Of a stretch of DNA of 64,000 nucleotides, positions 17,301 to 64,000 are shown piece after piece. A program made the position numbers and the translations under genes. The notes beneath the pieces were generated by a model that searched no databases, had not been told where the DNA came from, and worked only from the letters and a program-made list of their open reading frames with translations. The DNA comes from an uncultured Alphaproteobacteria bacterium (GTDB lineage: Bacteria > Pseudomonadota > Alphaproteobacteria > Micavibrionales > Micavibrionaceae): positions 100,070 to 164,069 of the forward strand of contig CAMLMC010000003.1 in the NCBI GenBank assembly GCA_946481075.1, given 5' to 3'. Each line of letters starts with the position of its first letter. Within the stretch, counting starts at the first letter, position 1.

Positions 17301-20300
17301 GCGAACGTCCGGCGAAAACGACGGACAATGCAGCCGATATTAAAGTTATCTACACGGCAGGTGATGGCACGGAAACGGTTATTCCCCGCACGGCATACTT
17401 CTCGACAGAGCGCGGCGGTTCTACATCCATCAATCCTGATGGTAAGGCCCACGTTGTTTCCGGCATTCCGGAAGGTGATGACACCGTTCTGCGTATCGGT
17501 TTCGAAGACCTGAACGACAACGACTATAACGATGCTATCTTCGACCTCAAGATCAACAGCTGTGACAAAGCCTGCGGCTGCGGCACCGGCGGTATCAAGG
17601 ATATCTTCGGCTATGTCCTGCAAGACGGCGATGGCGACCGCGATCCGGCAACACTGACCCTGACTGGCAAAGACCTGACGGACGATCATCCGGTCTTCAC
17701 GGCTCCAGGCGTTGAAATCGTGGACGAAACCAACCTGTCTGGCGGGATCATCACCGAAACAGGCAATGTCGTGGTTAACTTCGGCGCGGATGGTCCGGGC
17801 ACTGTTGACCCTGCGGGTACGTTCAGCAGCTCGGGTTCCAAACTCAATGGTTCCCTGACATCGAACGGCGTTCCGGTTGTTGTCACGCTGCTGGGTGATG
17901 TCTACACCGGTAAGGCTGGCAACACGGTTGTATTTACATTCGAAATCAATACGGATGGTTCCTATACCTTTAAACTGTATGAACATCTGGATCATGCCGA
18001 CGGCACAAACCCGAACGATGCGATTGACCTGCATTTCGGCGTGTTGGCGACAGACTGCGATGGCGATACGGCCAAGGAAACGGTTGTTGTCCGCGTGAAG
18101 GACGATGCGCCGAACGCAAATGACGATGTTGTAAACGTCAATGAAAACGGCACGGCGAACGGCAATGTCACGAACAACGACGTTTCCGGACAGGACACGC
18201 CTGCGACAGTGACGCAAGTAGTCTACAAAGGCACGACTTATACGGTTCCTGTGAATGGCGACAATGTCACGATCAATGCCGATCACGGTACGCTGACGAT
18301 CAACAAGACGGGTGCCTATACCTATGTTGCCAAGAACGTGAATTCCGACAAAACGGATGAATTCACATACACCTACAAAGACCATGATGGCGACACCGAT
18401 ACGGCGAAATTGTCCGTCAACGTCAAGAATATGAATGACACCCCGGATATCATCAAACCGGCGGATGAAATTCTGGACGAGACAAACCTGTCCGGTGGCA
18501 CAATCACCGAAACAGGAACAGTGACTGCCGACTTCAAGGGCGATGGTCCGGGCTCGTTTGCAGGTACAGGCACCTTCAGCTCCTCGGGCTCCAAGCTCGG
18601 CGGCAATCTGACGCACAATGGCGTTCCGGTTGTTGTAACTCTGAACGGCAACACCTATGAAGGCAAGGCCGGCGCGCTGACTGTCTTCACGCTGAAGGTG
18701 AATGCCGATGGTTCCTATGAGTTCAAATTGTTCGATAACCTCGACCATGCCGATGGTTCGAACCCGAACGATGCGATCAACCTTGTTTTCGGTATCAAGG
18801 CAACCGACGCCGATGGCGACTCTGCCTCGACAACACTGACCGTTAAGGTTCTGGATGATGCGCCGACGATCAACGGCTCCTCGGGTTCTGTTGACGAAAC
18901 CAACCTGAAATCCGGTCCGCTGGTTGTAAATGGTACACTGGCGCACAATTTCGGTCAGGATGGTGCAGGGTCTCTCGTCACGGGCGATGCGTCTGCTTTC
19001 GTGGCTGGTGGTTCGCTCAAAGGCGGCGCGTTGTCCTCGAACGGCGTTCCGGTTGTCGTCAGCCTCGAAGGCGGCAAATATGTCGGCAAGGCCGGCGGTA
19101 CAACCGTCTTCACACTGACCGTCAATGCGGATGGTTCGTACAAGTACGAGCAGTTCAAGAATCTGGATCACGCAAACGCAAATGATCCGAATGACGAAAT
19201 CACGTTGAAATTTGATGCAAAAATCATCGACTTTGATGGTGATAGCGCCAAGGCGCCGATCACGATCACTGTTCGTGACGATGCACCACGCTTCCCGCCG
19301 GATAATCCGGACAATCCTCCGGAAGATCCTGAGAACCCTCCTCCGGGCGATCCGAATGATCCGGCTCTGGGCAATGGTTACCGTATCGTGGATGAAACCA
19401 ATCTGTCCGGCGGCCAGATCGTAACGCAAGGCACATTGAATGCCGACTTCGGTGCCGATGCACCGGGCAGCTATGCGCTGAAGGCCGGAACGTTCTCCTC
19501 GCACGGTTCGAAAACGGGCGGCACGCTGTCCTCGAACGGTGTTCCGGTCGTGGTAACGCTGGAAGGTGGCAAGTTCGTCGGTAAGGCCGGCGGTACAACC
19601 GTCTTCACGCTTGAATTGAATGCGGCAACCGGCGCGTACAAATTCACGTTGCTGGAACAGCTGGATCATGCGAACGGCAACAACCCCAACGATGTCATCA
19701 ATCTGGTCTTTGGCGTTGAGGCCAAGGATTCGGAAGGTGATGCCGTTTCCGGTACTATCCGCATCGACGTACGCGACGATGCGCCGGATGCCAAGGACGA
19801 TATTGTGAACGTCAATGAAAACGGCACAGCGAACGGCAATGTCATGAACAATGATGTGGTCGGTCAGGACGTTGTCGGCACGATCACGCAAATCGTCTAC
19901 AAAGGTACGACATATATAGTACCGGCGAACGGTTCCGCGCTCGTTATCAACGCCGACTACGGCACGCTGACGATCAACAAGACAGGTGCGTATACCTATG
20001 TTGCGAAGTCCGTCTCGTCCGACAAGCAAGATGACTTTATCTACACACTGCGCGATCATGACGGTGACAAAGACACCGCCAAACTCTCGGTTTGTGTGAA
20101 GAACGGCAACGATACGCCGGATATCATCAAACCGGCGGATGAGGTTGTTGACGAAACAAACCTCGCTGGCGGCGTGATCACCGAAACAGGTTCTGTCACC
20201 GCCAACTTCTATGGCGATGGTCCGGGCACGTTTGCTGCAACAGGTTCTTTCAGCTCTTCGGGCTCCAAGCTCGGCGGCAACCTGACATCGAACGGTGTCC

Positions 20301-22093
20301 CTGTGACGGTTAATCTGTCCGGCAATACCTACACGGGTACGGCCGGCGGTGTGACCGTCTTTACGCTGGTCGTGAACACAAACGGTTCCTACACATTCAA
20401 ACTGTATGAACAGTTGGATCATGCGAACGGATCGGATCCGAACGACATCATCAACCTGACATTCGGTATCAAGGCAACGGACGCCGATGGCGACTCCGCT
20501 TCCACGACGTTGACGGTCAAGGTTCTGGATGATGCGCCGGATGCCAAGGACGATACGGTGAATGTCAACGAAAACGGCACAGCGAACGGCAATGTCATGA
20601 ACAACGATGTGGTCGGTCAGGATGTTGTCGGCACGATCACGCAAATCGTCTACAAAGGCACAACTTACACCGTGCCTGCGAGCGGTAACCTAACGATCAA
20701 TGCCGATTATGGTACGCTGACGATCAACAAGACGGGCGCCTATACATATGTTGCCAAGTCCGTGACGTCTGACCAGAAAGACAACTTCATCTACACATTG
20801 CGTGATCATGATGGAGACATCGATACGGCCAAACTGGAAGTTTGCGTCATCAACAAGGATGAAACACCGGATATCGTGAAACCGGCTGACAAAATTGTCG
20901 ATGAAACCAACTTGTCCGGTGGCACAATCGTGACATCCGGCCAAGTTACCGCCAACTACAAAGGCGATGGCCCGGGTTCGATCAGCGGTACGGGATCGTT
21001 CAGCTCTTCGGGCTCCAAGCTCGGCGGTGTTCTCTCGCACAACGGCACGGCTATCAATGTCACATACTCTGGTGGCACATACACAGGTAAGGCCGGTACG
21101 TTGACGATCTTTACACTGGCGATCAATGCCGACGGCACGTTCACGTTCCGTCAGTTTGAAGAGCTTGATCATGCGGACGGATCCAATCCGAACGACATCA
21201 TCAATCTCAGCTTCGGTGTGAAGGCGACAGATGCCGATGGCGACTCTGCCTCCACGACGATCACGGTCCAGGTGAAAGACGATGCGCCGATCGCCAAGGC
21301 CGATTATTGTACGGTATGGTCCGATGGCGGTTCCATCAGCTCGAACGCCCTGACGAATGACAATTTCGGTCAGGATGGAATGGGCAAGTTGCAGTCGATT
21401 ACGTTCGGCAGCACGACCGTCAATATCCCGTCGAGCGGTACGGCGACAATCTACGGTAACTACGGTTACGTCACGATTGCGGCGAACGGTTCCTACACCT
21501 ACACGGTGACGAGCGGCAGCAGCCAGCCGGCATCGGAGAACTTCAGCTACAAGATCACCGATGGTGATGGCGATAGTACGACGGCTCTGTTGCAGGTCAA
21601 CCTCGTCAAGTGGCTTGGTAACGGCACGACAGACGGCAGCAACGGCAACGACACGATCTATGGTACGACCGGCGCTGATACCTTCTACGGTAACGGCGGT
21701 GATGACTGGCTGTACGGACGTGGCGGCAACGACACCATCTATGGCGGCGCGGGCAATGACCGCATCGTCGGCGGTGCCGGTAGCGACACGCTCTATGGTG
21801 GTTCGGGTGCTGACACATTCTTGTACGAAGCGATCAATGACGGTGTCGACCGCATCAAGGATTTCAACAAGGCGGAAGGCGACAAGCTTGACCTCTCGGC
21901 CCTGCTGAACGGCTTTGATCCGGTGACCGAATCGATCAACGATTTCGTCTTTGCGACCCATAGCGGCGGTAACACGACGATTTCCGTCAATATGGCCGGA
22001 ACAGGTGCCGGTGGCGCCACGGCGATTGCTGTGCTCGAAGGGACGACCGTGTCGATTGCCGACCTGTTCAACAACGGCAATATCGTCCATTAA
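14333..22093 (+). CDS. Giant T1SS-143 repeat adhesin with C-terminal RTX signal
   Basis: 2586 residues, a LapA/BapA-like surface adhesin. An N-terminal prefix (1-200) holds two related beta modules (GGLVISFVEGGSVTI and GDMVIGFANGGKIVI), followed by an acidic low-complexity stretch (200-320). Nine T1SS-143 repeats follow, each opening with (V/L/I)DETNL, near residues 347, 488, 636, 1130, 1381, 1520, 1686, 1939 and 2189. Between them are five VCBS/Big-like domains, one with a DUF4114-like module (YFSTERGG near 1022), and a Pro-rich linker (about 1655-1680). RTX repeats (GGAGNDRIVGGAGSD, about 2430-2500) and a hydrophobic tail form the type I export signal. Almost no Cys. The dedicated secretion genes follow. 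It probably mediates attachment or biofilm formation; the ligand is unknown. Confidence 0.93.
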   Translation: MASNNIILAVPSANTSVDYTLPDSSSAKLSFSPEDINGLNLDGKGGLVISFVEGGSVTISNFQSFIDNGNTLSLADGTQVDPKLLFNALGGENDNPFIAADAIRIGVPADGTTREITLESGKKYVLNFDLSETNGAEVVDGDMVIGFANGGKIVINDYETAMAGEMPPELSIASKTCVVTGNELITNIQALAAAGALDQTVIVEEEAEEDAKRKSTIADADMVGADDIGPGDETALGYQAPKVEPESAESDEDVADVEPAAGEQDMAEAARELAEIETAAGGPAGGARNSGYGYGSRPGSDPFTGKPDIGPIDPTQLGYRAPTIEPNRFFTPANSNPQAIGPNAQFLDETNLDGGPISKSGTINIDFGADGPGGINPNNNFSSSGSKLNGNLSHNGEAIIVSVVGNDYVGKTTGGDTVFKLVIDALTGNYTFTQYLPLDHADGTDPNDTIVLTFGIVARDGDGDSLNTTVNISIADDAPSIEGAEETVDETNLGPIVETGNLAVDFGEDGAGTVVTSGTFSSSGSKLNGTLSSDGHPITVTHTANGYEGVANGVVIFELILSTTGGYTYKQYGNLDHADPNNPDDIIKLTFGAKVIDYDGDTDVAPIVINVKDDAPRFVDCGCGHTPTPGNAVEIIDETNLKSGNIVETGTLNVDFGADAPGSFAFKSNGFTPSGSMKNGALTHNGVPVVVTIENGQYVGKAGSVTVFTMAINATTGEYTFTLLDNLDHADGTNPNDIISLKFDVLASDSEGDSVQGSITVNVKDDAPIANNDVNTYNTTTGVANGNVISGLNGGAGAADVLSQDENNTVVKVSFGTTEVDVPATGTVSIDGAYGTLTIAADGTYSYQAFATPGSSTVVEKKFAAGPALPDFEYQALDATEQQSIGIAAGNLDVKGGDTIQLNFVKENATNHNTVAVFTVDAQGNITIGKVLVKDTETATMETQSFTVPGGAVKAGMMLISGFGTTDPILSNLNHTTGTLSVVYGYGTAGERPAKTTDNAADIKVIYTAGDGTETVIPRTAYFSTERGGSTSINPDGKAHVVSGIPEGDDTVLRIGFEDLNDNDYNDAIFDLKINSCDKACGCGTGGIKDIFGYVLQDGDGDRDPATLTLTGKDLTDDHPVFTAPGVEIVDETNLSGGIITETGNVVVNFGADGPGTVDPAGTFSSSGSKLNGSLTSNGVPVVVTLLGDVYTGKAGNTVVFTFEINTDGSYTFKLYEHLDHADGTNPNDAIDLHFGVLATDCDGDTAKETVVVRVKDDAPNANDDVVNVNENGTANGNVTNNDVSGQDTPATVTQVVYKGTTYTVPVNGDNVTINADHGTLTINKTGAYTYVAKNVNSDKTDEFTYTYKDHDGDTDTAKLSVNVKNMNDTPDIIKPADEILDETNLSGGTITETGTVTADFKGDGPGSFAGTGTFSSSGSKLGGNLTHNGVPVVVTLNGNTYEGKAGALTVFTLKVNADGSYEFKLFDNLDHADGSNPNDAINLVFGIKATDADGDSASTTLTVKVLDDAPTINGSSGSVDETNLKSGPLVVNGTLAHNFGQDGAGSLVTGDASAFVAGGSLKGGALSSNGVPVVVSLEGGKYVGKAGGTTVFTLTVNADGSYKYEQFKNLDHANANDPNDEITLKFDAKIIDFDGDSAKAPITITVRDDAPRFPPDNPDNPPEDPENPPPGDPNDPALGNGYRIVDETNLSGGQIVTQGTLNADFGADAPGSYALKAGTFSSHGSKTGGTLSSNGVPVVVTLEGGKFVGKAGGTTVFTLELNAATGAYKFTLLEQLDHANGNNPNDVINLVFGVEAKDSEGDAVSGTIRIDVRDDAPDAKDDIVNVNENGTANGNVMNNDVVGQDVVGTITQIVYKGTTYIVPANGSALVINADYGTLTINKTGAYTYVAKSVSSDKQDDFIYTLRDHDGDKDTAKLSVCVKNGNDTPDIIKPADEVVDETNLAGGVITETGSVTANFYGDGPGTFAATGSFSSSGSKLGGNLTSNGVPVTVNLSGNTYTGTAGGVTVFTLVVNTNGSYTFKLYEQLDHANGSDPNDIINLTFGIKATDADGDSASTTLTVKVLDDAPDAKDDTVNVNENGTANGNVMNNDVVGQDVVGTITQIVYKGTTYTVPASGNLTINADYGTLTINKTGAYTYVAKSVTSDQKDNFIYTLRDHDGDIDTAKLEVCVINKDETPDIVKPADKIVDETNLSGGTIVTSGQVTANYKGDGPGSISGTGSFSSSGSKLGGVLSHNGTAINVTYSGGTYTGKAGTLTIFTLAINADGTFTFRQFEELDHADGSNPNDIINLSFGVKATDADGDSASTTITVQVKDDAPIAKADYCTVWSDGGSISSNALTNDNFGQDGMGKLQSITFGSTTVNIPSSGTATIYGNYGYVTIAANGSYTYTVTSGSSQPASENFSYKITDGDGDSTTALLQVNLVKWLGNGTTDGSNGNDTIYGTTGADTFYGNGGDDWLYGRGGNDTIYGGAGNDRIVGGAGSDTLYGGSGADTFLYEAINDGVDRIKDFNKAEGDKLDLSALLNGFDPVTESINDFVFATHSGGNTTISVNMAGTGAGGATAIAVLEGTTVSIADLFNNGNIVH
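15370..21300 (+). repeat. Nine T1SS-143 coding repeats in the adhesin gene
   Basis: The repeats begin at about 15371, 15794, 16238, 17720, 18473, 18890, 19388, 20147 and 20897, each encoding DETNL, then D(F/Y)xxDGPG, FSSSGSKL, GxxLxHNGVPV and LDHAxGxNPND elements. Spacing varies because VCBS-like domains are inserted between some repeats. Confidence 0.9.
19778..20663 (+). repeat. Near-identical direct DNA repeats within the adhesin gene
   Basis: About 133 bp at 19778-19910 reappears almost unchanged at 20531-20663 (offset 753 bp, 251 codons), encoding the NVNENGTANGNVMNNDV type of VCBS domain. Such tracts allow in-frame expansion or deletion by recombination. Confidence 0.85.
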
Positions 22094-22107
22094 TGGATAA
22101 ATTTAGG

Positions 22108-22134
22108 AAAGCGGGGAACTTCCCCGCTTTTCGT
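22108..22134 (+). terminator. Intrinsic terminator of the adhesin gene
   Basis: 10-bp stem AAAGCGGGGA / TCCCCGCTTT with a 3-nt loop, followed by a short T-rich tail. It separates the adhesin transcript from the secretion genes. Confidence 0.85.
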
Positions 22135-22203
22135 GCTTTATCAGTAAATTCGGACCGCTTTTTCATCCTGATTTCAATAAAGCAATAAAACTCGTTGTAA
22201 TGC

Positions 22204-22231
22204 TTGACTTTTCATATAAACAGCGTATACA
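22204..22231 (+). promoter_or_regulatory. Candidate promoter of the secretion operon
   Basis: TTGACT, 16 nt, TATACA, with a leader of about 110 nt before the TolC-like gene. The 257-bp gap 22094-22350 holds only this and the adhesin terminator. Confidence 0.5.
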
Positions 22232-22350
22232 ACCGCAAGGACTTTAAAGCGGCCCGGAACCAGAACTGACTTGCGCAGCGGGGCGAATAAGGTCATAAAT
22301 AACTAACCAAAGTCATTGAATTTGAATGACATACGACAAAGGGTCATACT

Positions 22351-23724
22351 ATGGCAAAACATGCACTGAATAATTCTCTTCTGACTGTGGCTTGCGCAAT
22401 GGCGGTAGGCCTTGCATTTCCGGCGATGGCGCAGGAAAGACCTACAGAAATGACCCTATCGAAAGCCGTTTCCGTCGGCGTCATGACAAATCCCGAATAT
22501 GGCCAGGTTGCGGCAAGCCGCCGGGCGACAGACGAAGAATTGAATCAGGCAAAGGCACTTTATCTGCCGTCGATCGATCTTCGCGCCGATGGTGGTTTTG
22601 AACGCACGGACAGCCCGTCCACACGCGCGACAGGCGATGATGACAAAACATTCTCCCGCTACAATGCAAGCCTGACGCTGACCCAAATGCTGTTTGACGG
22701 CTGGGGAACAAAGTACGAGAACGAGCGTCAGAAAAACCGTGTTCAGTCTTCCGCGCACCGCGTGAAGGAAACGGCAGAACTGACAGGTCTTAACATCGTT
22801 GAATCGTTCCTAGAAGTAATGCGCCAGCGTGAGCTTCTGTCCATCACGCGCGATAACGTTGCCGAACACGTCGCCATTATGGGTATGATCGAAGAAGGCG
22901 TGAATGCCGGACGTTCAACACAGGCCGACCTTGAACAGATCAAGGCCCGTTTGTCTTCTGCCCGCGCTCAGGAATCCTCTACACGCCAGCAGCTGCGCAT
23001 TGCTGAATCCAGCTTCTTGCGCGATGTTGGCGATATGCCCAAAGACCTCGTCATGCCGGCCGTTCCGGTGAACGCGATTGCCGCCGATGTCGAAGCCGAA
23101 GTGAAACTCGCTCTGGCACAAAGCCCGACACTCGATGTGCGCGAATCCGACATCGAAGTGGCGTACAATGAATATAAAGGTACGGGCTCTACGCTGTACC
23201 CGCAAGTTGATCTGCAACTCGGCGGCGCGGCTGGCCGCAATGTCGGCGGTATTGAAGGCAATGACCGTTCTGCATCCGCTCTGGTTGTCATGAACTGGAA
23301 CCTCTATCGCGGCGGCGGCGATGTTGCCCGCGTCCGTGAATTCAAACACCGTCACCAACAGGCCAAGGAAGTCCGTTCCATCGCGGCGCGCCAACTGGAA
23401 GATGATGTTCGCCAGACATGGGCGAGCATGGTTTCTGCGGGTGAACGCGCGAAGGAATTTTCCTCCCAGGCTGCCGCGAACGGTGAAGTTGTCCGCGCGT
23501 ACAAAGACCAGTTCAGCCTGGACCGCCGTACGCTTCTCGATGTGCTCGATTCACAGAACGAATTGTTCGTCTCCCGTTCGAACACGATCAACGCCGAATT
23601 CCTTGAAATCTTCTCGGTCTTCCGCCTACTGGCCTTGAAAGGCCAACTCCTGCCGACGCTGGGCGTTGCCTACCCGCAGGAAAGCGAGAAAATCGAAATC
23701 ACGAATAAACCCGCTGAAAAGTAA
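22351..23724 (+). CDS. TolC-family outer membrane channel of a type I secretion system (LapE-like)
   Basis: 457 residues. A signal peptide (hydrophobic 10-24, cleavage after AMA at residue 27) is followed by two homologous halves of outer-membrane-factor type: long charged helices with paired beta strands, e.g. SLTLTQMLFDGWGTKYE in the first half and VVMNWNLYRGGGDVARV in the second. It should form the trimeric exit duct spanning the outer membrane and periplasm. It is the first gene of a three-gene operon after the adhesin and is therefore the likely LapE/TolC partner rather than a general drug-efflux duct. Confidence 0.92.
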   Translation: MAKHALNNSLLTVACAMAVGLAFPAMAQERPTEMTLSKAVSVGVMTNPEYGQVAASRRATDEELNQAKALYLPSIDLRADGGFERTDSPSTRATGDDDKTFSRYNASLTLTQMLFDGWGTKYENERQKNRVQSSAHRVKETAELTGLNIVESFLEVMRQRELLSITRDNVAEHVAIMGMIEEGVNAGRSTQADLEQIKARLSSARAQESSTRQQLRIAESSFLRDVGDMPKDLVMPAVPVNAIAADVEAEVKLALAQSPTLDVRESDIEVAYNEYKGTGSTLYPQVDLQLGGAAGRNVGGIEGNDRSASALVVMNWNLYRGGGDVARVREFKHRHQQAKEVRSIAARQLEDDVRQTWASMVSAGERAKEFSSQAAANGEVVRAYKDQFSLDRRTLLDVLDSQNELFVSRSNTINAEFLEIFSVFRLLALKGQLLPTLGVAYPQESEKIEITNKPAEK

Positions 23725-23751
23725 TCTTTTACAACCGTAAAGGTTTAACAC

Positions 23752-26079
23752 GTGTCAAACAACGAATATGGACCGGGCGCAGGATCTGCGCCCGCGTCTG
23801 ACTCTCAACAACAGAATCAAACAGCAAGAGCGCATGAAGAGACCATCGACTCATGGCCGCTGGAAGCCGACCGCATGGCCATTCAGGACCCGCTCGTGGA
23901 TGCCCTGCGCATTCTTGCGGGTTTCTACGGAAGGCGTACCAGTCCGGGGGCGCTGACCGCCGGTTTGCCGGTGCCGGCAAGTGGTATCACCCCGCAACTT
24001 TTCGTGCGTGCCGCGGAACGTACGGGTTTGCACGCTCGTCTGGCCGACCGCACCATCGAGGCGCTCGCGATTGCACCGAACTTGCCGTGCATTCTGGTTC
24101 TTGAAGACAAACAGGCCTGCATTCTCTGGGAAGTACGCGAACCCGGGAAGACATCGAAGAAAGGTCAGCATAAGGCAAAGGCGGATGAAAAAGGCCGCAA
24201 AGTCCATCCTGAAACCGAATTCGTCGTACAATTTCCGGAAACCGAAGATGAAAAACAGATTCTGAAATTATCGGATCTGAAAAAGATTTACACCAATTAC
24301 GCCTTCTATGTACGTCCTGTCGCCCGCACAGACGAACGCGCCGGCCCTGCCGAAATAGACACAGGCCGTGAATGGTTCTGGAGCGCCCTTTGGGAAAACA
24401 AATCGGTCTATAGCGAAGTTATTCTTGCGGCGGTGATGATCAATCTGTTCGCGATCGCATCCTCGCTATTCGTTATGAATGTTTATGACCGGGTGATACC
24501 CAATAACGCGTACGAAACCCTTTGGGTGCTCGCGATTGGCGTGCTTGTTGTGTATGTGTTTGATTTTATCCTGAAGAATATGCGTGCCCATTTTCTCGAT
24601 TACGCGGGGAAAAAGGCGGATATCAAAATCTCTGCGCGCCTGTTCCAGCAAATGATGGGCATGACTATGGCCTCGCGTCCCGCAAGTGCGGGGGTGATGG
24701 CAAGCCACATGCGTGAATTCGAAGGTTTACGGGATTTCTTTACTTCGGCTACGATGACGACGCTGATCGATCTGCCGTTCATCTTCCTTTTCATCCTGCT
24801 GATTGCCATTGTCGGCGGACCGATTGCCTTTGTCCCGCTCGCGGCGGTACCGATCGTCGTCGGGATCGGCATGTTCATGCAAAAACCGCTGGAAAAAGTC
24901 ACGAAGCAATCGATGATGGAAAGTGCGCTCAAAAACGCGCTTTTGTTTGAAACGATTTCCGGCCTTGAAACCATCAAGGCACAGGCGGCCGAAGGGCATA
25001 CACAGCGCAGCTGGGAAGAACTCACGGAAAAGGCCGCCCGCACATCGGCCAAATCGAAACAGATCAACGCGCTGGCCCTGAACCTCGCCGTATTCGTGCA
25101 GCAGGTGGCAAGCGTCGCCGTCGTTGTCGTCGGTGTTTATCTTATTGCGCATGCCAAACTGTCCATGGGGGCGCTTGTTGCTTGCGTGATTCTGACGGGC
25201 CGCGCCATGGCACCGCTATCATCCGTTGCCGCTTTGCTGACGCGCCTTCACCAGTCGCGTGAAGGCCTGATCCAGTTGAACGATCTGATGCACCGTCCCG
25301 TTGAGCGTCCGGCCGGAAAACATTTTATTTCGATGAACGCACCGGCGGGCAAGGTGGAATTTCAGGATGTGCTTTTCCATTATCCGGGTCAAAGCGTCCC
25401 GGCCTTGAATCATGTTTCCTTCACGATAGAACCGGGCGAACATGTCGGCGTCATCGGCGCGGTGGGGTCCGGTAAGACGACTTTGGAGCGTTTGTTGATC
25501 AACCTTTATCAACCCGATAGTGGCTCTGTACAAATCGATGGCACAGATGTCCGTCAGATTGACCCCGGTGATTTGCGCCGAAATGTCGGCGCCGTGCAGC
25601 AAAGCCCGCAGCTTTTTTACGGCACCGTGCGCAGCAATATCACGATGGGCCATGAAACCGCGCCTGACCGTGCCGTGTTGCGCGCTGCCGAACTGGCGGG
25701 CGTAACCGATTTCTTGCGCGATTCACAGGCAGGCCTTGATACGCAGGTTGGCGAACGCGGCGAAGCCCTCTCGGGCGGACAGCGCCAGTCGGTCGCGATT
25801 GCCCGGGCGCTTTTATACGATCCGCCGATTCTGGTGCTGGATGAACCCACCGCATCGATGGATCCGGCTTCTGAATCACGTTTGCTGAAACGTCTGCAAC
25901 ACGTGACGGCGGGCCGCACGACTATTTTGATTACGCACAAGGGCACGATGCTGAGCCTTGTCGATAAGATTATCCTGATCGACCGTGGCCGCATTATCGC
26001 GTATGGGCCGAAAGACGATATTATCCGCAAACTGCAAAACCGACAGTTCGGCACCTCGGCCGAAGCCACGGATGTATGA
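23752..26079 (+). CDS. Type I secretion ABC transporter, LapB/LssB-like
   Basis: 775 residues from a GTG start. The N-terminal 150 residues align with a C39-peptidase-like domain but lack the catalytic Cys (the position reads DPLVDALRIL), so it recognises rather than cleaves substrate, as in HlyB and LapB. Six transmembrane segments follow (about 220-480), then the nucleotide-binding domain: Walker A GAVGSGKTTLER near 571, signature LSGGQRQSVAIARAL near 673, and Walker B ILVLDEPTASMD. It powers export of the repeat adhesin across the inner membrane. The HlyD-like gene overlaps its stop by 4 nt (ATGA). Confidence 0.94.
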   Translation: MSNNEYGPGAGSAPASDSQQQNQTARAHEETIDSWPLEADRMAIQDPLVDALRILAGFYGRRTSPGALTAGLPVPASGITPQLFVRAAERTGLHARLADRTIEALAIAPNLPCILVLEDKQACILWEVREPGKTSKKGQHKAKADEKGRKVHPETEFVVQFPETEDEKQILKLSDLKKIYTNYAFYVRPVARTDERAGPAEIDTGREWFWSALWENKSVYSEVILAAVMINLFAIASSLFVMNVYDRVIPNNAYETLWVLAIGVLVVYVFDFILKNMRAHFLDYAGKKADIKISARLFQQMMGMTMASRPASAGVMASHMREFEGLRDFFTSATMTTLIDLPFIFLFILLIAIVGGPIAFVPLAAVPIVVGIGMFMQKPLEKVTKQSMMESALKNALLFETISGLETIKAQAAEGHTQRSWEELTEKAARTSAKSKQINALALNLAVFVQQVASVAVVVVGVYLIAHAKLSMGALVACVILTGRAMAPLSSVAALLTRLHQSREGLIQLNDLMHRPVERPAGKHFISMNAPAGKVEFQDVLFHYPGQSVPALNHVSFTIEPGEHVGVIGAVGSGKTTLERLLINLYQPDSGSVQIDGTDVRQIDPGDLRRNVGAVQQSPQLFYGTVRSNITMGHETAPDRAVLRAAELAGVTDFLRDSQAGLDTQVGERGEALSGGQRQSVAIARALLYDPPILVLDEPTASMDPASESRLLKRLQHVTAGRTTILITHKGTMLSLVDKIILIDRGRIIAYGPKDDIIRKLQNRQFGTSAEATDV

Positions 26080-27560
26080 CCATGTTTGAGAAAAAGAAAA
26101 AGCCGATCAAAACTGTCACAGGCAATGATCCCAATCTGGCAAAGGCCCTTCAGGCCGAGTTGAACAAGCGCGGCGGCGCGGTGCCGGGCGGTGATCTTGA
26201 AGCCAACATCAACCAGACCCGTCAGGGCTGGATGGAAAAGCAAATGCAAAAGGCTGCGGCGCATGCCGAGCGGGTTTTGATTACGGACGAAGATTTACCG
26301 CTGGGCCGCCATGTTATCATGCTTGCGATCTGCGGGTTCTTTGTTCTGTTCTTTTTGTGGGCGACATTTGCCAAACTCGATGAAACGACGCGAGGGCAGG
26401 GGAAGGTTATCCCGTCCCGTGAAATTCAGAGACTGTCCACGCTGGAAGGCGGCATCATCGATGAAATTCTTGTGAATGAACGCGAAGTTGTAAAAGAGGG
26501 GCAAACCCTTGTTCGCATGCGGAATATTGCGGCCACATCCGAATATGGATCGACCGAGGCCCGCATTCTTGGCTTGAAGGCCACGATCGCCCGCCTTAAA
26601 GCCGAAGTGGAAGGCACCATACCCGAATTTCCGCCCGAGGTGATGGAAGGCGCGCCGCAAGCCGTGACGGTCGAAATGAATGCCTACCGCGCCAACAAGG
26701 ATAAGATAGACACGCAAGTAACGGTGTTGCAGCAGCAAAGAAGCCAGCGCTCCCAGGAATTGAACGAATTGCAAATCAAATCAGGCGATTTGAAAGGGCA
26801 ATTGTCGCTTGTGCAGGAAGAAAAGGCGATGGTTGCACCGCTGGTGGCCGCCGGTTCCGCGCCCAAGATGGAATTGCTGCAGCTTGACCGCAGCATAAAA
26901 GAGAAACAGACCGAGTTGAACAGCGTCAATTCGGCCATGCCCCGCGCACGGTCCGCGATTGCCGAAGCAGATGCCCGCATTCGCGACCTGACCAACTCCG
27001 CCAAGGCGCAGGCGCAAACTGAATTGTCCGCAAAAAGCATCGAGCTCAGCTCGCTTGAAAAAGGTATCGGCACGTTGGAAGACCGTCGCGACCGTACTGA
27101 AATCAAATCCCCCGTAAACGGGATCGTGCAGGACTTGAAAGTCTATACTATTGGTGGCGTGGTTCAGCCAGGGCAGGATTTTATCGAGATTGTTCCCGTG
27201 GATGACAAACTGATTGTCGAGGCACGCATCAAACCGCAGGATATTGCCTTCCTCTATGAAAACCAACCGGCGACGGTCAAGATAACGGCTTATGATTTTT
27301 CCATCTATGGCGGCCTGAAAGGCAAGGTTATCGGTATTTCGCCGGACGCTGTCGTCGATGAGAAGGGTGAAAGCTTTTATCTTGTCCGTGTCGAAACTGA
27401 CCAGAATACTCTAGACAAAAAAGGCAAGGATGGGAAGGAACTGGCGATTATGCCGGGGATGGTCGCTACCGTCGATATTCTGACAGGGCAGAAAACCGTC
27501 ATGGAATATTTGCTGAAACCTTTCATCAAAACGGTCGATGGCGCTTTAAACGAGCGTTAA
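26076..27560 (+). CDS. HlyD-family membrane fusion protein (LapC-like)
   Basis: 494 residues: a cytoplasmic basic N-terminus (about 75 residues), one transmembrane helix (VIMLAICGFFVLFFLWATF, about 80-98), a barrel-sandwich half (GKVIPSREIQRLSTLEGGII), a long coiled coil (about 150-340, heptad-rich), and the closing lipoyl/beta-barrel half (ETKSPVNGIV-like DRTEIKSPVNGIVQD, then GGVVQPGQ). It links the ABC transporter to the TolC-like duct in the periplasm. Translation is coupled to the ABC gene by ATGA; a second in-frame ATG lies at 26082. The operon ends here with convergent transcription from 27577. Confidence 0.93.
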   Translation: MTMFEKKKKPIKTVTGNDPNLAKALQAELNKRGGAVPGGDLEANINQTRQGWMEKQMQKAAAHAERVLITDEDLPLGRHVIMLAICGFFVLFFLWATFAKLDETTRGQGKVIPSREIQRLSTLEGGIIDEILVNEREVVKEGQTLVRMRNIAATSEYGSTEARILGLKATIARLKAEVEGTIPEFPPEVMEGAPQAVTVEMNAYRANKDKIDTQVTVLQQQRSQRSQELNELQIKSGDLKGQLSLVQEEKAMVAPLVAAGSAPKMELLQLDRSIKEKQTELNSVNSAMPRARSAIAEADARIRDLTNSAKAQAQTELSAKSIELSSLEKGIGTLEDRRDRTEIKSPVNGIVQDLKVYTIGGVVQPGQDFIEIVPVDDKLIVEARIKPQDIAFLYENQPATVKITAYDFSIYGGLKGKVIGISPDAVVDEKGESFYLVRVETDQNTLDKKGKDGKELAIMPGMVATVDILTGQKTVMEYLLKPFIKTVDGALNER

Positions 27561-54862: not shown

Positions 54863-55663
54863 CTAAACGGCGCTTCGAAGCGATTTTACCTGTGTGGAAA
54901 TAATGTCCGTCAATCGTTTATCGCTTTGATTCTCCTTGATATTTCTGACAATCGTGGATCCGACGACCACCCCGTCCGCTACGGCCGAAAATGCCCTGGC
55001 ATCCTCTGGCGTTTTGATGCCGAAACCGGCGACAATCGGCAAATCGGTCTTTTTGCGGATGTCTTTAATATGTTGCGCCACTATATCGGCGTCGGCTGTC
55101 GTGGTGCCGGTGATGCCGAGGATCGATACATAATAAAGGAAACCGCTCGCGCTTTTCAGAATTTTATCAAGGCGGGTTTCATCCGATGTCGGGGCGATCA
55201 GGCGGATCAGCGCAATATTATTTTGCTGCAGTTTTGGCAGAATTTCATTTTCCTCTTCCGGCGGGATATCGGCGATGATCAGGCCATCAACACCTATCTT
55301 GCTGCAATCATTGGAAAATTTTTCGATGCCGTATCGCAGGATCGGGTTGAAATAACCCATAAGGACAATCGGGGTATCCGAATTTATGCTGCGGAATTGC
55401 GAAACGACGTCTAAAACGCCTTGTAGGGTCATGCCGCCATTCAGGGCGCGGATGCCTGCCGCCTGAATTTCGGGTCCGTCGGCCATGGGGTCCGAAAACG
55501 GCATGCCGATTTCAAGGATATCCGCGCCGCTTTGCGCGATTTTGTGCAGCAATTCCAGACTGGTCGTGGCGTCCGGATCCCCTGCCATCGTGTAGGTGAC
55601 AAGGGCTTTTTTATTGGATTGCTTCAAACGGGCAAAAACCTGATCAAGACGGTTCATGGACAT
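54863..55663 (-). CDS. trpA: Tryptophan synthase alpha subunit
   Basis: 266 residues from the ATG at 55663, with AAGGA 8 nt upstream; a longer frame to 55837 is spurious. The catalytic Glu and Asp lie in LEIGMPFSDPMADGP (near 50) and IADIPPEEE. The phosphate loop is in GFGIKTPEDAR and VGSTIV. It cleaves indole-3-glycerol phosphate. It normally directly follows trpB; here three unrelated genes intervene, and its start overlaps the HNH gene by 20 nt. Confidence 0.96.
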   Translation of the reverse strand: MSMNRLDQVFARLKQSNKKALVTYTMAGDPDATTSLELLHKIAQSGADILEIGMPFSDPMADGPEIQAAGIRALNGGMTLQGVLDVVSQFRSINSDTPIVLMGYFNPILRYGIEKFSNDCSKIGVDGLIIADIPPEEENEILPKLQQNNIALIRLIAPTSDETRLDKILKSASGFLYYVSILGITGTTTADADIVAQHIKDIRKKTDLPIVAGFGIKTPEDARAFSAVADGVVVGSTIVRNIKENQSDKRLTDIISTQVKSLRSAV

Positions 55664-56363
55664 AGTGGAGATCCTTTTGTAAAAGCTTTTCCATACGTTG
55701 GCGCAAAATATCATCGTCTTCTGTTTTTTCACGGAAACCGCCGGGAATGACGGGTACGATTGTTGGCCGTCCGTTTTGATTTTTGGGGCGGAAGCCCAAT
55801 ATCTCTTCCAGTCCTGCGCGCGTTTGGATATGGGCAAACCGGCCCTTATATACGTTTAAATAGGAAGGCATAATGCATAGATTGGATATATCATTTGTGC
55901 CACCCCATGATATTTCCTGAATATGGTCTACTGTCAAATCATACCCTACCCCCCTTGAAATTTGTGGGATACGGTTTCTCTGCGCAAGAAGATTGATCTG
56001 CCCTCTTGAAAGTCCCATTTCCATTAAGTTTTTTTGGGTTGCCTTGTCCTTGAAGGCCGCTTTTAAAAAGCCCCATCTGACTTTGGTATCAAATTCTTCC
56101 CGCAGGGTAATCCGGCGGGAATCTTCTGCGGCAACTGGCCGGTAATAGAAAAATTCAAGACTATCGGGCAGATTATGCGTAATTCCTTCGACTATTAAAA
56201 GCGAATCGCGCCTCCCCTGTAGTTTTCGCAATATTTTACTGCCCTCTTTTTTATTATCGTTCGAGAAGGCGGTATCGAGTTTAGCTGCAAGATCGGTAAT
56301 CTCCGAGACTAAGAAGTCTTTGATCCGGTTGGCTGTTTTATCTATGTCTGCCGGACTAAGCAT
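55644..56363 (-). CDS. HNH endonuclease-domain protein inserted in the trp operon
   Basis: 239 residues from the ATG at 56363 (a GGGGA lies upstream; GTG at 56375 is the alternative). The first 130 residues are helical and charged with no known domain (SRGQINLLAQRNRIPQ). Then comes the HNH-like core: YDLTVDHIQEISWGGTND, then ISNLCIMPSYLNVYKGRF, in which D-H, GG-N and N-x5-K match the HNH consensus. A basic tail follows. No phage, restriction or intron genes surround it. It overlaps the GyrI-like gene by 8 nt and trpA by 20 nt, so all are translated from one mRNA. Confidence 0.72.
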   Translation of the reverse strand: MLSPADIDKTANRIKDFLVSEITDLAAKLDTAFSNDNKKEGSKILRKLQGRRDSLLIVEGITHNLPDSLEFFYYRPVAAEDSRRITLREEFDTKVRWGFLKAAFKDKATQKNLMEMGLSRGQINLLAQRNRIPQISRGVGYDLTVDHIQEISWGGTNDISNLCIMPSYLNVYKGRFAHIQTRAGLEEILGFRPKNQNGRPTIVPVIPGGFREKTEDDDILRQRMEKLLQKDLHYVHEPS

Positions 56364-56847
56364 CGATCCCCACACAAATCAGGACTTCATGCAGGCCTTC
56401 TTCGAAAAAACGCGGGCCGTAAATTTCGACATCTGTTCTGAAGGCGCGCTTGAGATCGGTTTTCCAGATCGATTGCCATGTTTCTAAAAGGGCCTTTGGT
56501 TGTTCTCCCTGCGCCGCAAAGATCAAATAATCGCCGGATTCGACAAACACGCTGGAAAGCCCGTCCACAATCGCGAAATCATCGTTTTTGACGCGGCAAC
56601 CGATGGTCAGAGAATAGGCGGCCTCGTGATCGCCTTCATAATCATGATAGATGGCATATATCGCCTCGCCATCCTTGGCCGGAATGGCCTCGCCGACCGC
56701 TTCTTCAAAGAAACGCTGCCACAGCGTATTGATGTCATCCGTGGCTTTCCCGTCCTTATTCGTTGTGCGGGTTGTGATACCGACAACGGTGAAGCCGCCC
56801 AGTTTCTGGGACTCTTCGGGGGAATTTGAAATATTATTTTGCTGCAC
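56356..56847 (-). CDS. GyrI/YdeE-like small-molecule-binding protein
   Basis: 163 residues from a GTG start, with AAGGA 8 nt upstream. The two-fold beta-alpha-beta layout of the SOUL/GyrI-like domain is visible: FTVVGITTRTTN, AIYAIYHDYEGDHEAAYSL, VFVESGDYLIFAAQGEQP and TWQSIWKTDLKRAF, ending DVEIYGPRFFEEGLHEVLI. Such domains bind small hydrophobic or cationic ligands, alone or fused to AraC-type regulators; there is no DNA-binding domain here. The start overlaps the YdcF-like stop by 1 nt. The ligand is unknown. Confidence 0.7.
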   Translation of the reverse strand: MQQNNISNSPEESQKLGGFTVVGITTRTTNKDGKATDDINTLWQRFFEEAVGEAIPAKDGEAIYAIYHDYEGDHEAAYSLTIGCRVKNDDFAIVDGLSSVFVESGDYLIFAAQGEQPKALLETWQSIWKTDLKRAFRTDVEIYGPRFFEEGLHEVLICVGIDA

Positions 56848-57524
56848 TATTGCGGTCCTTGTAATAAGGGAAGTGGTTGCGCCAAAGCAGCCACGCGGGA
56901 GTTGATGAGATTGATACTGATGTCGGTAATATAGCCCGCCTCTTTATAAGCGGTGATTTTGGCATATTCCTTGAGCACGATAGGGGCCGTTTCGGCATGC
57001 AAGCCGAATTTCTTGGGCGGATAGGGGAAAGGGTTGACATTAGAGGCCATGGCCAGAACCTGCGGCCAGTTTTGCGCCAATGTCATTAAAAAGCGGCGGC
57101 CCGCCACAATATTTCCGACTGCAATCAGGCTGTTAATGCCGCGTGGACCATAAGAATCGTAGATTTTATCGCGGGAATAAAGGACATTTTCCTGCGTGTT
57201 GGTTGATAAGGTTTCCGTGATGATGTCTTTGGCCGGAATATTTTGCTGCAGCAAATGATGCTCTATAACTTCGGCTTCTAATTGACCGGAATTGTCGGTA
57301 CGGCCACCGGAGACAACAATTTTGTCGCAATAGCCGTTTTTATAAAGCCGCGCACCCTCATCGGCCAATTGCCTGTAGCAATGCTGGTTTCCGAAAATAA
57401 GGGCGATGTCTGCTTTGGCCAAATCTGTCTTTTCAATCAGCATAAAGCGCGAGATATAGGGCCATTCCTCGTTGGCTTGTTCGTTGGCGGCAGGCCCTAT
57501 GAAGTGTGGCCGCAGATACATCAT
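56847..57524 (-). CDS. YdcF/SanA-like DUF218 protein
   Basis: 225 residues with the DUF218 core: [10 protein letters not shown] (near 40), [19 protein letters not shown] (near 70-88), [16 protein letters not shown] and [19 protein letters not shown]. YdcF binds SAM-like ligands in one structure and ElyC/SanA members act at the envelope; this one lacks an obvious signal peptide or membrane helix. The ATG overlaps the trpB stop by 4 nt (ATGA). Role here unknown. Confidence 0.75.
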
Positions 57525-60607: not shown

Positions 60608-60910
60608 TCAATCGTCTTCGCCGTGGTCGACCCCGCCGTTCAGGCGTTCACGTAGGCCCTTTCCGGTTTTGAAGAAAGGAAGACGTTTCGCCTCGACATG
60701 CACGGTTTCGCCTGTGCGGGGGTTGCGGCCTGTGCGCGCATCGCGGGATTTGACGGAAAACGCCCCGAAACCGCGGAGTTCAACACGGTCGCCCTTGGCG
60801 AGCGCGCCTGAAATTTCATCGAATACGGTATCCACGATTTTTTCGACATCACGCAGGAACAGATGCGGGTTGCGCTCTGCCAGCTTTTGTATGAGTTCGG
60901 ATTTGGTCAT
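60608..60910 (-). CDS. ihfB: Integration host factor subunit beta
   Basis: 100 residues. The HU/IHF fold with [15 protein letters not shown] at the start, the beta-arm [21 protein letters not shown] (intercalating Pro within) and [16 protein letters not shown]. It bends DNA as a heterodimer with IHF-alpha. AAGGAGACGG lies before the ATG. A terminator follows. Confidence 0.95.
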
Positions 60911-61037: not shown

Positions 61038-63134
61038 TTATTCCGCTCCATGACCCTTTTCCACCAAGGCCCTCAGTTCCTTCATTTCCGCTTTCAACGC
61101 ATCGTTCTCGGCCTTGAGTTCCTTGACGGCATTGATAAGGGCGTAGGGCAGAGCCGATGGATCGAGGTCAAGATAACCATCTTTTCGCTCCGATATCATT
61201 TCCGGCAAAACTTTCTGCGCATCTTGTGCGGAAAGGCCGATGAATTCGCGATCTGAAGGTTCGTTGCGGATATTGTCTTTCTTGTAATGGAAGCGGATGG
61301 GATTGAGACGTAACAATTCATCGAGTCCAGCCGTGTAGGGACCATCAACATTTTTCAACCGTATATCCGATGATGCCGTCCACGATCCGCCGCCCGGTTT
61401 AAGGGCGTTGGTAAAAACATTGAAGTTTCCACCATCCACCGAAGCAACCAGCGCCGCGCCTGTCGATGACTTCACGGCGCCGTGATTGTCCCCTCCTGAA
61501 TAACCCTGATTATACATGCGGATGCCGCCATAAGAACTATGGGCGGAAAGTGTTAGGCCGCCATGGGCGTGGATTCTATAAACACCGGCGTTGGCCGCAC
61601 TATTGGGTCGGTTATAATCAAGATCATCCGTGGGAAGGGATGAGGCCAGAACCAAACCCCAATCGTTGTACCCGCCGCTGATACCGCCCGACCCCTTCAT
61701 GAACTGTCCGTAAACATGGAGCCGCGCTTCGGGTGTGTATGTCCCGATTCCGACATTGCCTGTCGCGGAATCAATGAACATGCGTTCGAGATAGGAAGAT
61801 CCGTTCCAGTAGGTGAGGAAGAAATCCTCGCGCTGCGAGGTGGTGGCCCAGCTCGATCCCTTGGCTTCGAACAGCCAGCCACGGGCGGTGGCGGCACCGA
61901 GTTGTGAGGCCGCGTCGCCATGGGTGTTGAGGGCAAGGCCCGCAATCCCTGTCGCCGCACCTTCAACGCTGATCGCGCCGATCCCGCTCTTGTTGCTGAC
62001 ATGAAGCCTCGATGCGGGTGTGGGTGTTCCGATCCCGATATTGCCGCCATCCAGTGCGGTCAGGGTTTCGGTGTTGTATTGATTGAGGATGGAGAAGCGG
62101 GCCGAGGTGCCATTCACTTTAAGATAAACAGGGGATGCAATGCCGCCTGTCGGGCCGCCGATTTCAAGGCCGCGTTTTATGCTGCTGGCGACCGTCGAAA
62201 ATTGCGCGATCGGATAGGACCCGCCAACCCCGCTGCCTGCCACGTTATCTGTTGTGGCAAGGACCGTGTCGAACCTGACAGCCGGTGTGGTCGTGCCGAT
62301 CCCGACATTGCCCGCATCGTAATAAATATCGCTGCCCGTGGCGGTCCACAGGCTCTCGCCACCGCCACCGCCGCCGCCACCGCCGCCACCTCCACCACCG
62401 GAGCCGGAATATTTACAGTAAATAACGGCGACGTTTTTGGGGCGTGATTCCGTGCCGCCATCGGCATTGATGGTGAGGGAGTGGGTGTGGGCACCGGCAT
62501 TGTTGATGGTGAGGGAGTGGGTGTGGGCACCGGCGCTGTTGATGGACAATGTGTGGGCGTGGTCACCCGCCGCGTTGACGGCGCCTGTGGTTGTGATGTT
62601 GTTGGGCTGGCTGAGCTGGGCTCCGTATCTATAATCCGCGTTGTTATCGCCGCGACCGCTTAGGGAGTGAGTGTGGCTACCTGTGGTGTTGGTCGAGCCA
62701 CTATGCGTATGGTCGCCTGCGCTCGCCGCACTTCCGGTATGACCGTGGTCGCCGGCGCTAGCGGCGCTTCCGGTATGGCTGTGCGATTTGTTGGAATCTG
62801 CCTGAATGCTGCCTGCGGCGCGCACGGTATCGTTGGTGCCGGTGGGGTCGATACCGCGCAGGAACCGTCCCCGTGCAGGCGTATATTCATCCCATCCTTC
62901 GGGACAACTGGAGGCCTCGAACGCCACGATCATGTCGGGTGTCATCGATCCGCCGCCTGAACCCCCGCCACCTAGAACGCGCCAGTCGGTACCGTTGCAG
63001 AACTGGATAGCCTGCGCATCGGCATTGTAAAACACATCCGCCGCCTCGCCTGCAGGGCCCGTGCACGCGGCGTTTGCGCTTTCTGGCGCAAGAACAAAGA
63101 ATATCGTGCCGATTAAAAGAACCTTCCTAATCAT
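61038..63134 (-). CDS. Secreted fibre protein with HxH collar and S74 self-cleaving chaperone
   Basis: 698 residues. Signal peptide (cleavage after ANA, residue 22). A tail-fibre collar-like domain follows (RGRFLRGIDPTGTND near 87), with seven His-x-His motifs between residues 118 and 218, as in phage T4 gp37, then a 14-Gly run (about 246-259). Next come shaft repeats with NVGIGTxTP motifs (near 280, 370, 460), and a C-terminal peptidase_S74 domain with ASSDIRLKN (Ser588/Ser589) and IGLSAQDAQKVLPEM, ending in a coiled coil. S74 domains help fibres trimerise and then cleave themselves off. This looks like the mosaic fibre proteins reported in Bdellovibrio predators, here in an alphaproteobacterium. 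GAGGT precedes the start. Confidence 0.85.
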   Translation of the reverse strand: MIRKVLLIGTIFFVLAPESANAACTGPAGEAADVFYNADAQAIQFCNGTDWRVLGGGGSGGGSMTPDMIVAFEASSCPEGWDEYTPARGRFLRGIDPTGTNDTVRAAGSIQADSNKSHSHTGSAASAGDHGHTGSAASAGDHTHSGSTNTTGSHTHSLSGRGDNNADYRYGAQLSQPNNITTTGAVNAAGDHAHTLSINSAGAHTHSLTINNAGAHTHSLTINADGGTESRPKNVAVIYCKYSGSGGGGGGGGGGGGGGESLWTATGSDIYYDAGNVGIGTTTPAVRFDTVLATTDNVAGSGVGGSYPIAQFSTVASSIKRGLEIGGPTGGIASPVYLKVNGTSARFSILNQYNTETLTALDGGNIGIGTPTPASRLHVSNKSGIGAISVEGAATGIAGLALNTHGDAASQLGAATARGWLFEAKGSSWATTSQREDFFLTYWNGSSYLERMFIDSATGNVGIGTYTPEARLHVYGQFMKGSGGISGGYNDWGLVLASSLPTDDLDYNRPNSAANAGVYRIHAHGGLTLSAHSSYGGIRMYNQGYSGGDNHGAVKSSTGAALVASVDGGNFNVFTNALKPGGGSWTASSDIRLKNVDGPYTAGLDELLRLNPIRFHYKKDNIRNEPSDREFIGLSAQDAQKVLPEMISERKDGYLDLDPSALPYALINAVKELKAENDALKAEMKELRALVEKGHGAE
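62359..62400. repeat. GGN triplet tract coding for poly-Gly
   Basis: A run of about 14 CCN/CCG-type triplets (plus strand) encodes 14 consecutive Gly in the fibre. Length changes would stay in frame. Confidence 0.85.
62467..62574. repeat. 36-bp tandem repeats in the fibre gene
   Basis: Two nearly identical 36-bp units (62467-62502, 62503-62538) and a degenerate third, each encoding a GAHTHSLTINxA element. They are part of the seven-motif His-x-His region. Confidence 0.85.
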
Positions 63135-63155: not shown

Positions 63156-64000
63156 TCACAAACACACGGCGAGGACATCTATCCGGCACATCCATCCTGA
63201 ACCGCCTTCATCCATGCAGGTGGATGTAGCGGTATTATTTGAAAAGTTTGATCCACCTTCATAATAAAGTTGTCCAGTGCCCGTTCGTTGTGATTGTGAA
63301 CCTCTAAATCCAAGCATAGTATAATAACCGCAAGCTCCATATCTTGTTGGAGATGCGCACGAACTCCATGGATAGTTCGAGGGGCAAAAGGCGGCCTTGG
63401 CATGACAGGCAATCAAAGTCTTTCCTGCAGGACAAGTTGCGGTCGCAGTGGCGGAACAGCTCATACCTGAACAGGCCTGTCCTGCTGTCACGGTTGTTGC
63501 GCCGCCTCCCCCCAGAGCGGATTGAGCGATACAGTTGGTGCCGCTGGTGTTGCAGATCTGTGGGGTGAGAACGGATTGTGTCGCGACGAGGCGCCCATCG
63601 GCATAGGACAGGGTGTAACCGCCGCTGCTCTCGCACGCGCCTTCGCATCCCGCGCCGATCCACCCTGTGGCCGCGATGTTGCCCCCCACATGAAGGTTCG
63701 TGGCCGGCGAGGCCTGATTGATCCCGACATTGCCGGCGATCCGCACCCCGCTCGCATATTCGGTGTTATAGTTCAGATACAGGACGCTGTTGGCCTTGTC
63801 GCCCAGCAGCGCAAGGCGGCGCGTTGTCCCGCTGCTGCCGATGGTGCCGCCCTGTATCCACACATCGTAGGTCGCATGCCATCCAGGGAAGGCCGTTATG
63901 CCGAGATTATCAATGCGGTTGTTGTTCATGTTCAAGAGCGCGGTCGCGGTATGGTTGCCGAGATTGTCGGCGCCGGAGACATCGGCGGCGCAGGCCCATG
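63156..64000 (-). CDS. Second fibre-type protein with Cys-rich C-terminal domain, 5' end outside window
   Basis: The frame is open to the right edge, so the N-terminus is missing; the ATG at 63935 is not the start because the upstream codons continue the repeat (SGADNLGNHTATALLNMNNN). Shaft elements include the DNLGNHTA and RIAGNVGINQASPATNLHVGG motifs seen in the 61038 gene and in tail-fibre-like proteins. The C-terminal 110 residues hold at least nine Cys in pairs (ACSGMSCS, CPAGKTLIACHAKAAFC, YPWSSCASP) with no S74 domain, so this is a different head. It lies 21 bp upstream of the 61038 gene on the same strand; the two are probably co-transcribed. Confidence 0.75.
   Translation of the reverse strand, partial: WACAADVSGADNLGNHTATALLNMNNNRIDNLGITAFPGWHATYDVWIQGGTIGSSGTTRRLALLGDKANSVLYLNYNTEYASGVRIAGNVGINQASPATNLHVGGNIAATGWIGAGCEGACESSGGYTLSYADGRLVATQSVLTPQICNTSGTNCIAQSALGGGGATTVTAGQACSGMSCSATATATCPAGKTLIACHAKAAFCPSNYPWSSCASPTRYGACGYYTMLGFRGSQSQRTGTGQLYYEGGSNFSNNTATSTCMDEGGSGWMCRIDVLAVCL

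Follow-up and report, generated by a model that had tools for sequence, protein, structure and literature searches.

The described proteins closest to the fibre analysed here are the T4 long-tail-fibre tip, gp37, whose D11 domain is inserted into its collar and whose iron sites are critical for folding and structure (PMC6957217), and the MAT fibres of Bdellovibrio such as Bd3182, which combine a signal peptide, a peptidase S74 domain with the motif SDxxxK, an NVGIGT-type shaft and interchangeable tips (PMC10769870). Fibres with S74 domains usually mature by trimerisation and self-cleavage, Bd3182 giving two bands in a manner blocked by S782A, and cleavage in other S74 proteins opens a ligand cleft (PMC10769870). 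A term search of that paper's main text returned no mention of HxH, metal, histidine, collar, Micavibrio or Alphaproteobacteria. For the alphaproteobacterial predator M. aeruginosavorus ARL-13, type IV pili were proposed to mediate attachment in the 2011 genome paper, the main text of which contains neither "fiber" nor "hemagglutinin" and has one "adhesin" in another context (PMC3189940). Among the open-access papers listed by our literature searches, we saw no description of comparable fibres in Micavibrionales.

The window, a 64,000-nucleotide stretch of contig CAMLMC010000003.1 from an uncultured member of the Micavibrionaceae (assembly GCA_946481075.1), carries such a gene at 61038..63134 on the minus strand, where its two neighbouring genes described below also lie. 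Its 698-residue product, read from an ATG start and annotated from the ORF call, Pfam and PHROG, begins with a signal-like peptide (residues 1-22; 63069..63134), seen by eye and in a 12-row alignment and predicted to be cut at SANA/AC. This is followed by an N-module of the form C-x-x-PAG...YN...QFCNGTDW (residues 23-60; 62955..63068), delimited in a 12-row alignment, a recurrent module rather than a proven anchor; it was rejected as a unique anchor because proteins carry it in several copies and stem proteins contain it as well. An internal collar domain (residues 71-241; 62412..62924) bears an inserted needle with a ladder of seven HxH motifs (residues 118-218; 62481..62783) at 118, 130, 142 and 154 and again at 192, 204 and 216, spaced by exactly 12 residues inside each run; shuffling residues 71-241 20,000 times never gave seven (mean 1.06). 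An eighth HxH, at 522, is not part of the ladder. The 35-residue loop between the fourth and fifth motifs (62562..62666), which alignments equate with the T4 tip loop, is a putative receptor-binding site. Beyond the collar lie a 14-glycine linker (residues 246-259; 62358..62399), a shaft (residues 262-475; 61710..62351) with NVGIGT at 276 and 460 and NIGIGT at 365, a distal segment (residues 476-588; 61371..61709) that may form a second tip of the mature fibre, and the S74 intramolecular chaperone (residues 589-698; 61041..61370). The last assignment is made by profile and motif: Pfam PF13884 matches residues 589-646 above cut-off (E 1.1e-9), and SDIRLK, providing S589 and K594 of SDxxxK, starts 110 residues before the C terminus, where self-cleavage at S589 is predicted.

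An earlier sequence-only reading of this gene had named the ORF, signal peptide, seven HxH motifs, shaft repeats and S74 domain, and all of these are present, the signal peptide as judged by eye. Its phage-collar-like domain is borne out by PHROG tail profiles (best phrog_4849, residues 88-238, E 1.6e-26) but not by the Pfam scan, in which Collar goes unmatched. What has to be revised is the notion of a tip, since the HxH ladder is internal and the S74 domain is predicted not to be the tip of the mature fibre. The predicted monomer structure is weak, averaging a pLDDT of 52; blocks reach means of at least 70 in the S74 domain, a single stretch of the shaft and portions of the N-module and collar only. 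On these parts rest its fold matches to the ICA domain of MyRF (7dc3, E 3.9e-5), the best, and to Bdellovibrio fibres (E about 1e-3). MyRF, a eukaryotic membrane-bound transcription factor, shares the S74/ICA chaperone fold and differs from the window fibre, in which no transmembrane-like stretch follows S74. By eye, two relatives' fibres (L141, 8283-11579; L142, 5253-9974) do end in such a hydrophobic stretch, which resembles MyRF in this respect; their precursors might stay membrane-held until self-cleavage.

Residues 86-242 alone match T4 gp37 (2xgf_A) at E 3.4e-7 in a PDB sequence search, the other three of four matches listed up to E 10 lying at E 0.96 or above; 2xgf is not among the matches listed when the whole fibre protein is the query. 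Because composition bias is high, the T4 fragment was also aligned with 2000 shuffled queries, against which the true alignment scores 217 vs. a mean of 71 (sd 10, maximum 116), and 116 vs. a shuffle maximum of 85 when histidines are masked. The likeness to the T4 tip proposed earlier is thus upheld, and we class the needle, on its sequence, as a gp37-type HxH ladder in a collar domain: both proteins have seven HxH inserted in the collar and a tip loop of similar length, but the window needle has the order 4 + 3 where the T4 fragment has 3 + 4, keeps a perfect 12-residue period, occurs in a cellular setting and is followed by 457 residues instead of standing at the C terminus. By analogy with T4, iron held by three chains is predicted. 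A count of the collar pattern in 121 proteins (the window fibre and 120 listed of 319 relatives found) gave 40 copies spread over 35 proteins, with 34 at internal sites and 6 at the C terminus; 32 of the 40 hold no more than one HxH, which argues that the ladder is an insertion, as is D11 in the T4 collar. At least five glycines fall within 18 residues after 14 of the 34 internal collars, vs. 8.5% of all 18-mers in these proteins. In a ladder survey of 343 proteins, a biased set made up of the window fibre and 342 listed by three homology searches, at least four HxH within 220 aa were found in 107; in 86 of them no more than 60 aa separate the end of the ladder from the C terminus, and 14 of the other 21 exceed this limit by less than 30 aa. 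Only three of the 107 (the window fibre, P0015 and P0040) have S74 downstream of the ladder.

The remaining parts of the fibre point in several directions. Compared with 13 relatives, its six segments have four different nearest neighbours: P0001 for the N-module (75%) and second shaft segment (90%), P0004 for the needle (65%), P0002, from a Hyphomicrobium MAG, for the distal segment (60%), and P0006 for the first shaft segment (46%) and S74 (63%). In P0001 a stretch resembling C1q (Pfam match below threshold, E 0.044) takes the needle's place and the S74 domain differs (32%). By this comparison of segments, the fibre has a mosaic shaft with interchangeable tips. A tree of 126 different S74 domains (116 columns, quick support) comprised 86 other rows, 19 Micavibrionales rows from loci passing the motif filter, 12 phage rows, six labelled stem, two Bdellovibrionota and the window; the window falls in a 49-row set (SH-aLRT 99) with 46 of the other rows and both Bdellovibrionota rows, and with no phage, Micavibrionales or labelled stem row. 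This fits, without proving, an S74 part imported from outside the order.

The earlier comparison with Bdellovibrio fibres accordingly stands for the SDxxxK S74 domain (48% to Bdellovibrio P0107) and the mosaic parts, and a direct sequence match to 8ojn adds to it (E 0.0027), but membership in the MAT superfamily is left unsupported. In MATs the signal peptide leads into a conserved, beta-rich domain some 130 aa long; the N-module of the window fibre, set against P0107 and P0095 only, found its best matches at internal sites 30-36 aa long (P0107, 30% over 30 aa). The window fibre further differs from MATs in its internal HxH needle, its polyglycine linker and its partner gene.

That partner lies immediately upstream, where the 3' part of a second gene (63156..63998) is identical over 280/280 residues to P0166, a 603-aa protein with a pseudopilin-type stem and a cysteine-rich end. 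P0166 has no PHROG match and no Pfam match up to E 10. The predicted structure of the stem has a long N-terminal helix and a GspG-like fold, T2SS GspG being its nearest fold; GspG was found only by a second-look aligner, and Foldseek gave no match at E ≤ 0.001 for the whole stem model. Assignment to a known family was rejected, with no pilin match in Pfam and none in NCBIfam, and a PDB sequence search returned nothing convincing (best E 0.15). The pilus adhesins of the PilV/shufflon type likewise have a pilin-type N terminus and exchangeable ends (PMC9045228), and two among 120 stem relatives listed bear the name PilV; they differ from the window's neighbour in that Pfam Shufflon_N falls on the shaft, not the stem, of three relatives and is absent from P0166, and in that the neighbour's stem is nearest to GspG. 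Equal longest contigs suggest that P0001 and P0166 (8320 each), and P0003 and P0173 (21332 each), are neighbours.

The pairing, missed by the sequence-only reading, recurs across the order. Our map covers 22 loci, namely 17 with stem and N-module on one contig and five of eight around fibre matches (L139, L140 and L146, with no stem match, were left out). A stem gene is directly followed by an N-module gene on the same strand in 15 of the 22 (L141, L142, L145, L175, L176, L178-L180, L182-L187 and L189), in a looser layout in L179, L183, L184, L186 and L187, where the second gene's first N-module starts at residue 128 to 255; an intervening ORF, unflagged stem or locus edge marks five (L144, L177, L181, L188 and L190), and L143 and L191 do not show the pairing. 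The map includes L176, which we take to be M. aeruginosavorus strain EPB, and L177, which is ARL-13 (PMC3189940); these genomes hold 41 and 37 N-module matches, respectively, and five S74 matches each. In L177 (6216-14748) a stem of 462 aa and a long shaft of 2375 aa are two ORFs, and L176 has a single ORF of 2739 aa in their place. An ARL-13 operon with stem and N-modules is located near 1.638-1.655 Mb. The window's nearest relatives, G001 and G017, both carry stem genes; the N-module is unmatched in G017, and its single match in G001 is weak (E 5e-4) and lies outside the stem loci examined there. The N-module was found in 62 of 142 genomes of the order. The search for S74 in related genomes called for earlier found it in 57 of these 142 vs. 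30 of 385 in a class sample that includes order members, two of the 30 among them, so that the class figures set a ceiling on the rates outside the order. Stems and S74 fibres are thus typical of the order.

The needle itself is rare there. A tip model of 142 positions (A1) matches 6 of the 142 genomes, five of them over only 28 to 81 positions, and the best match, in G034, covers positions 17-137 and lies in a protein with PHROG tail-collar matches beside a tail-fibre-assembly gene, in a phage-like locus (L196, 1-4006). A phage source for the needle is thus at hand. The earlier label of a predator-type fibre is apt insofar as the lineage includes a cultured predator, but the HxH ladder is no predator hallmark. 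Several other arrangements were seen in the order: secreted-fibre arrays in L139 and L140 (M. aeruginosavorus) with a common N terminus of the type GPEQMPRR..ICNGTTW and ends that are S74 or other; by eye, fibre genes adjoining fxsA- and secB-like genes in L142, L145 and L195; and, also by eye, an N-module protein with collagen-like repeats and a Hint/intein-like C-terminal part in L141 (7129-8265).

Downstream, the fibre gene is flanked by himD-lapA-pyrF-trp, the IHF-beta gene himD (60608..60910), placed by Pfam and synteny, marking the chromosomal side. The window's TrpB finds its best matches in MAGs of the Micavibrio order (91% over 282 aa to L056; 82% to L001, Micavibrio sp. UBA7689). Neither window fibre is matched in 31 related loci (blastp, E 1e-3), 16 of which show himD; by eye, rpsA directly precedes himD in L002, L003, L004, L006, L007 and L009, and another ORF lies between them in L001 and L008. 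These fibre-free loci with rpsA beside himD indicate that the fibre genes are an insertion in the window. Elsewhere in the window, 14333-27560 encodes a 2586-aa protein that combines nine DUF5801 stretches with cadherin-like and RTX parts; outer-membrane efflux, ABC and HlyD genes come after it in the manner of a giant type I secreted adhesin operon, and a second RTX/cadherin-type end lies at 1-1947. DUF218, Cass2/GyrI-like and HNH genes stand between trpB and trpA (55644-57524); the GyrI-like gene recurs at this place in L001, L005, L009, L012 and L013, and HNH in L009.

We consider it probable, with some reservation, that the gene encodes a secreted modular adhesive fibre, second after a GspG-type pseudopilin-stem fibre. 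That it is instead the tail-fibre gene of a prophage or its remnant is improbable, even though phage tail profiles match the collar, the needle finds matches in 16 phage records and the S74 region in 274, GC content stands at 58% vs. 53%, the order's strongest tip match is phage-associated, and the window ends 866 bp upstream of the fibre gene. The earlier statement that no phage genes surround it holds on the visible side, where no capsid, tail or lysis family is named in 35 Pfam-scanned ORFs of the window (6 + 10 + 9 + 10), a set that includes both fibres, the fibre itself aside, but is limited upstream to those 866 bp. The prophage reading loses further weight through the signal-like start, a neighbouring fibre of a kind common in the order and unmatched in PHROG, the himD-lapA-pyrF-trp flank, the grouping of S74 with both Bdellovibrionota rows and none of the 12 phage rows, and the yield of just one locus, with 34 residues matched, when close relatives were sought in viral contigs. 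The earlier idea of a cellular fibre built from phage parts is to this extent supported.

Two further readings concern what such a fibre does. That the fibre serves attachment in general or biofilm formation, and plays no part in predation, is rather unlikely but worth keeping in view: fibres related to it are found in Agrobacterium, Brucella, Hyphomicrobium and others, among which we know of no predators, and partial homologues lie on 12 plasmid records, in none of which a single place covers 80% of the query, while the genomic enrichment of stem and S74 in the order and the fibre gene arrays of cultured M. aeruginosavorus may speak against it. A somewhat stronger minority case can be made that the ladder is mainly a folding or stability device and that receptors are bound by the distal beta segment which S74 releases, in keeping with the importance of the T4 iron sites for folding and with the ligand cleft exposed in other S74 proteins; against this, the loop between the fourth and fifth HxH is placed where the T4 needle tip contacts receptors (PMC6957217).

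In the favoured reading of a secreted modular fibre, the chain would be exported by Sec, the C-terminal S74 chaperone would drive trimerisation and then cut at S589 to free the shaft end, and the collar needle would fold round metal held, as in T4, by the HxH motifs of three chains. The 14-glycine linker would let needle and shaft diverge into two binding heads, the chain running out through the metal-laddered needle, back to the collar, over the glycine hinge and into a second, S74-matured fibre; since the collar is complete at residue 241 and leads into the glycines, such a fork is the simplest geometry. The partner's pseudopilin-like stem suggests that both fibres could be displayed or exported jointly through machinery resembling a type IV pilus or a type II secretion system; the ARL-13 annotation lacks GspCGHK, whose place may be taken by proteins of the type IV pilus (PMC3189940). 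The fibre would then grip other cells, plausibly prey, as the lineage alone leads us to infer. The fullest version, a two-headed trimeric adhesin serving as exchangeable secreted partner of the pseudopilin-stem fibre, within a prey-gripping system of the Micavibrio order that evolved in parallel to the Bdellovibrio MATs through shuffling of phage tail tips, we offer only tentatively; if it is true, one trimer bears two independent receptor tips.

For the recognition of prey by epibiotic alphaproteobacterial predators, the locus offers a specific candidate operon that has counterparts in cultured M. aeruginosavorus. It shows a phage-type needle used within a bacterial protein instead of ending it, and fibres on pseudopilin-like stems, which connect components of tail fibres with the machinery of pili or type II secretion. 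The gene pair recurs in relatives of the window genome, cultured Micavibrio included, and may contribute to the hold of these bacteria on other cells.
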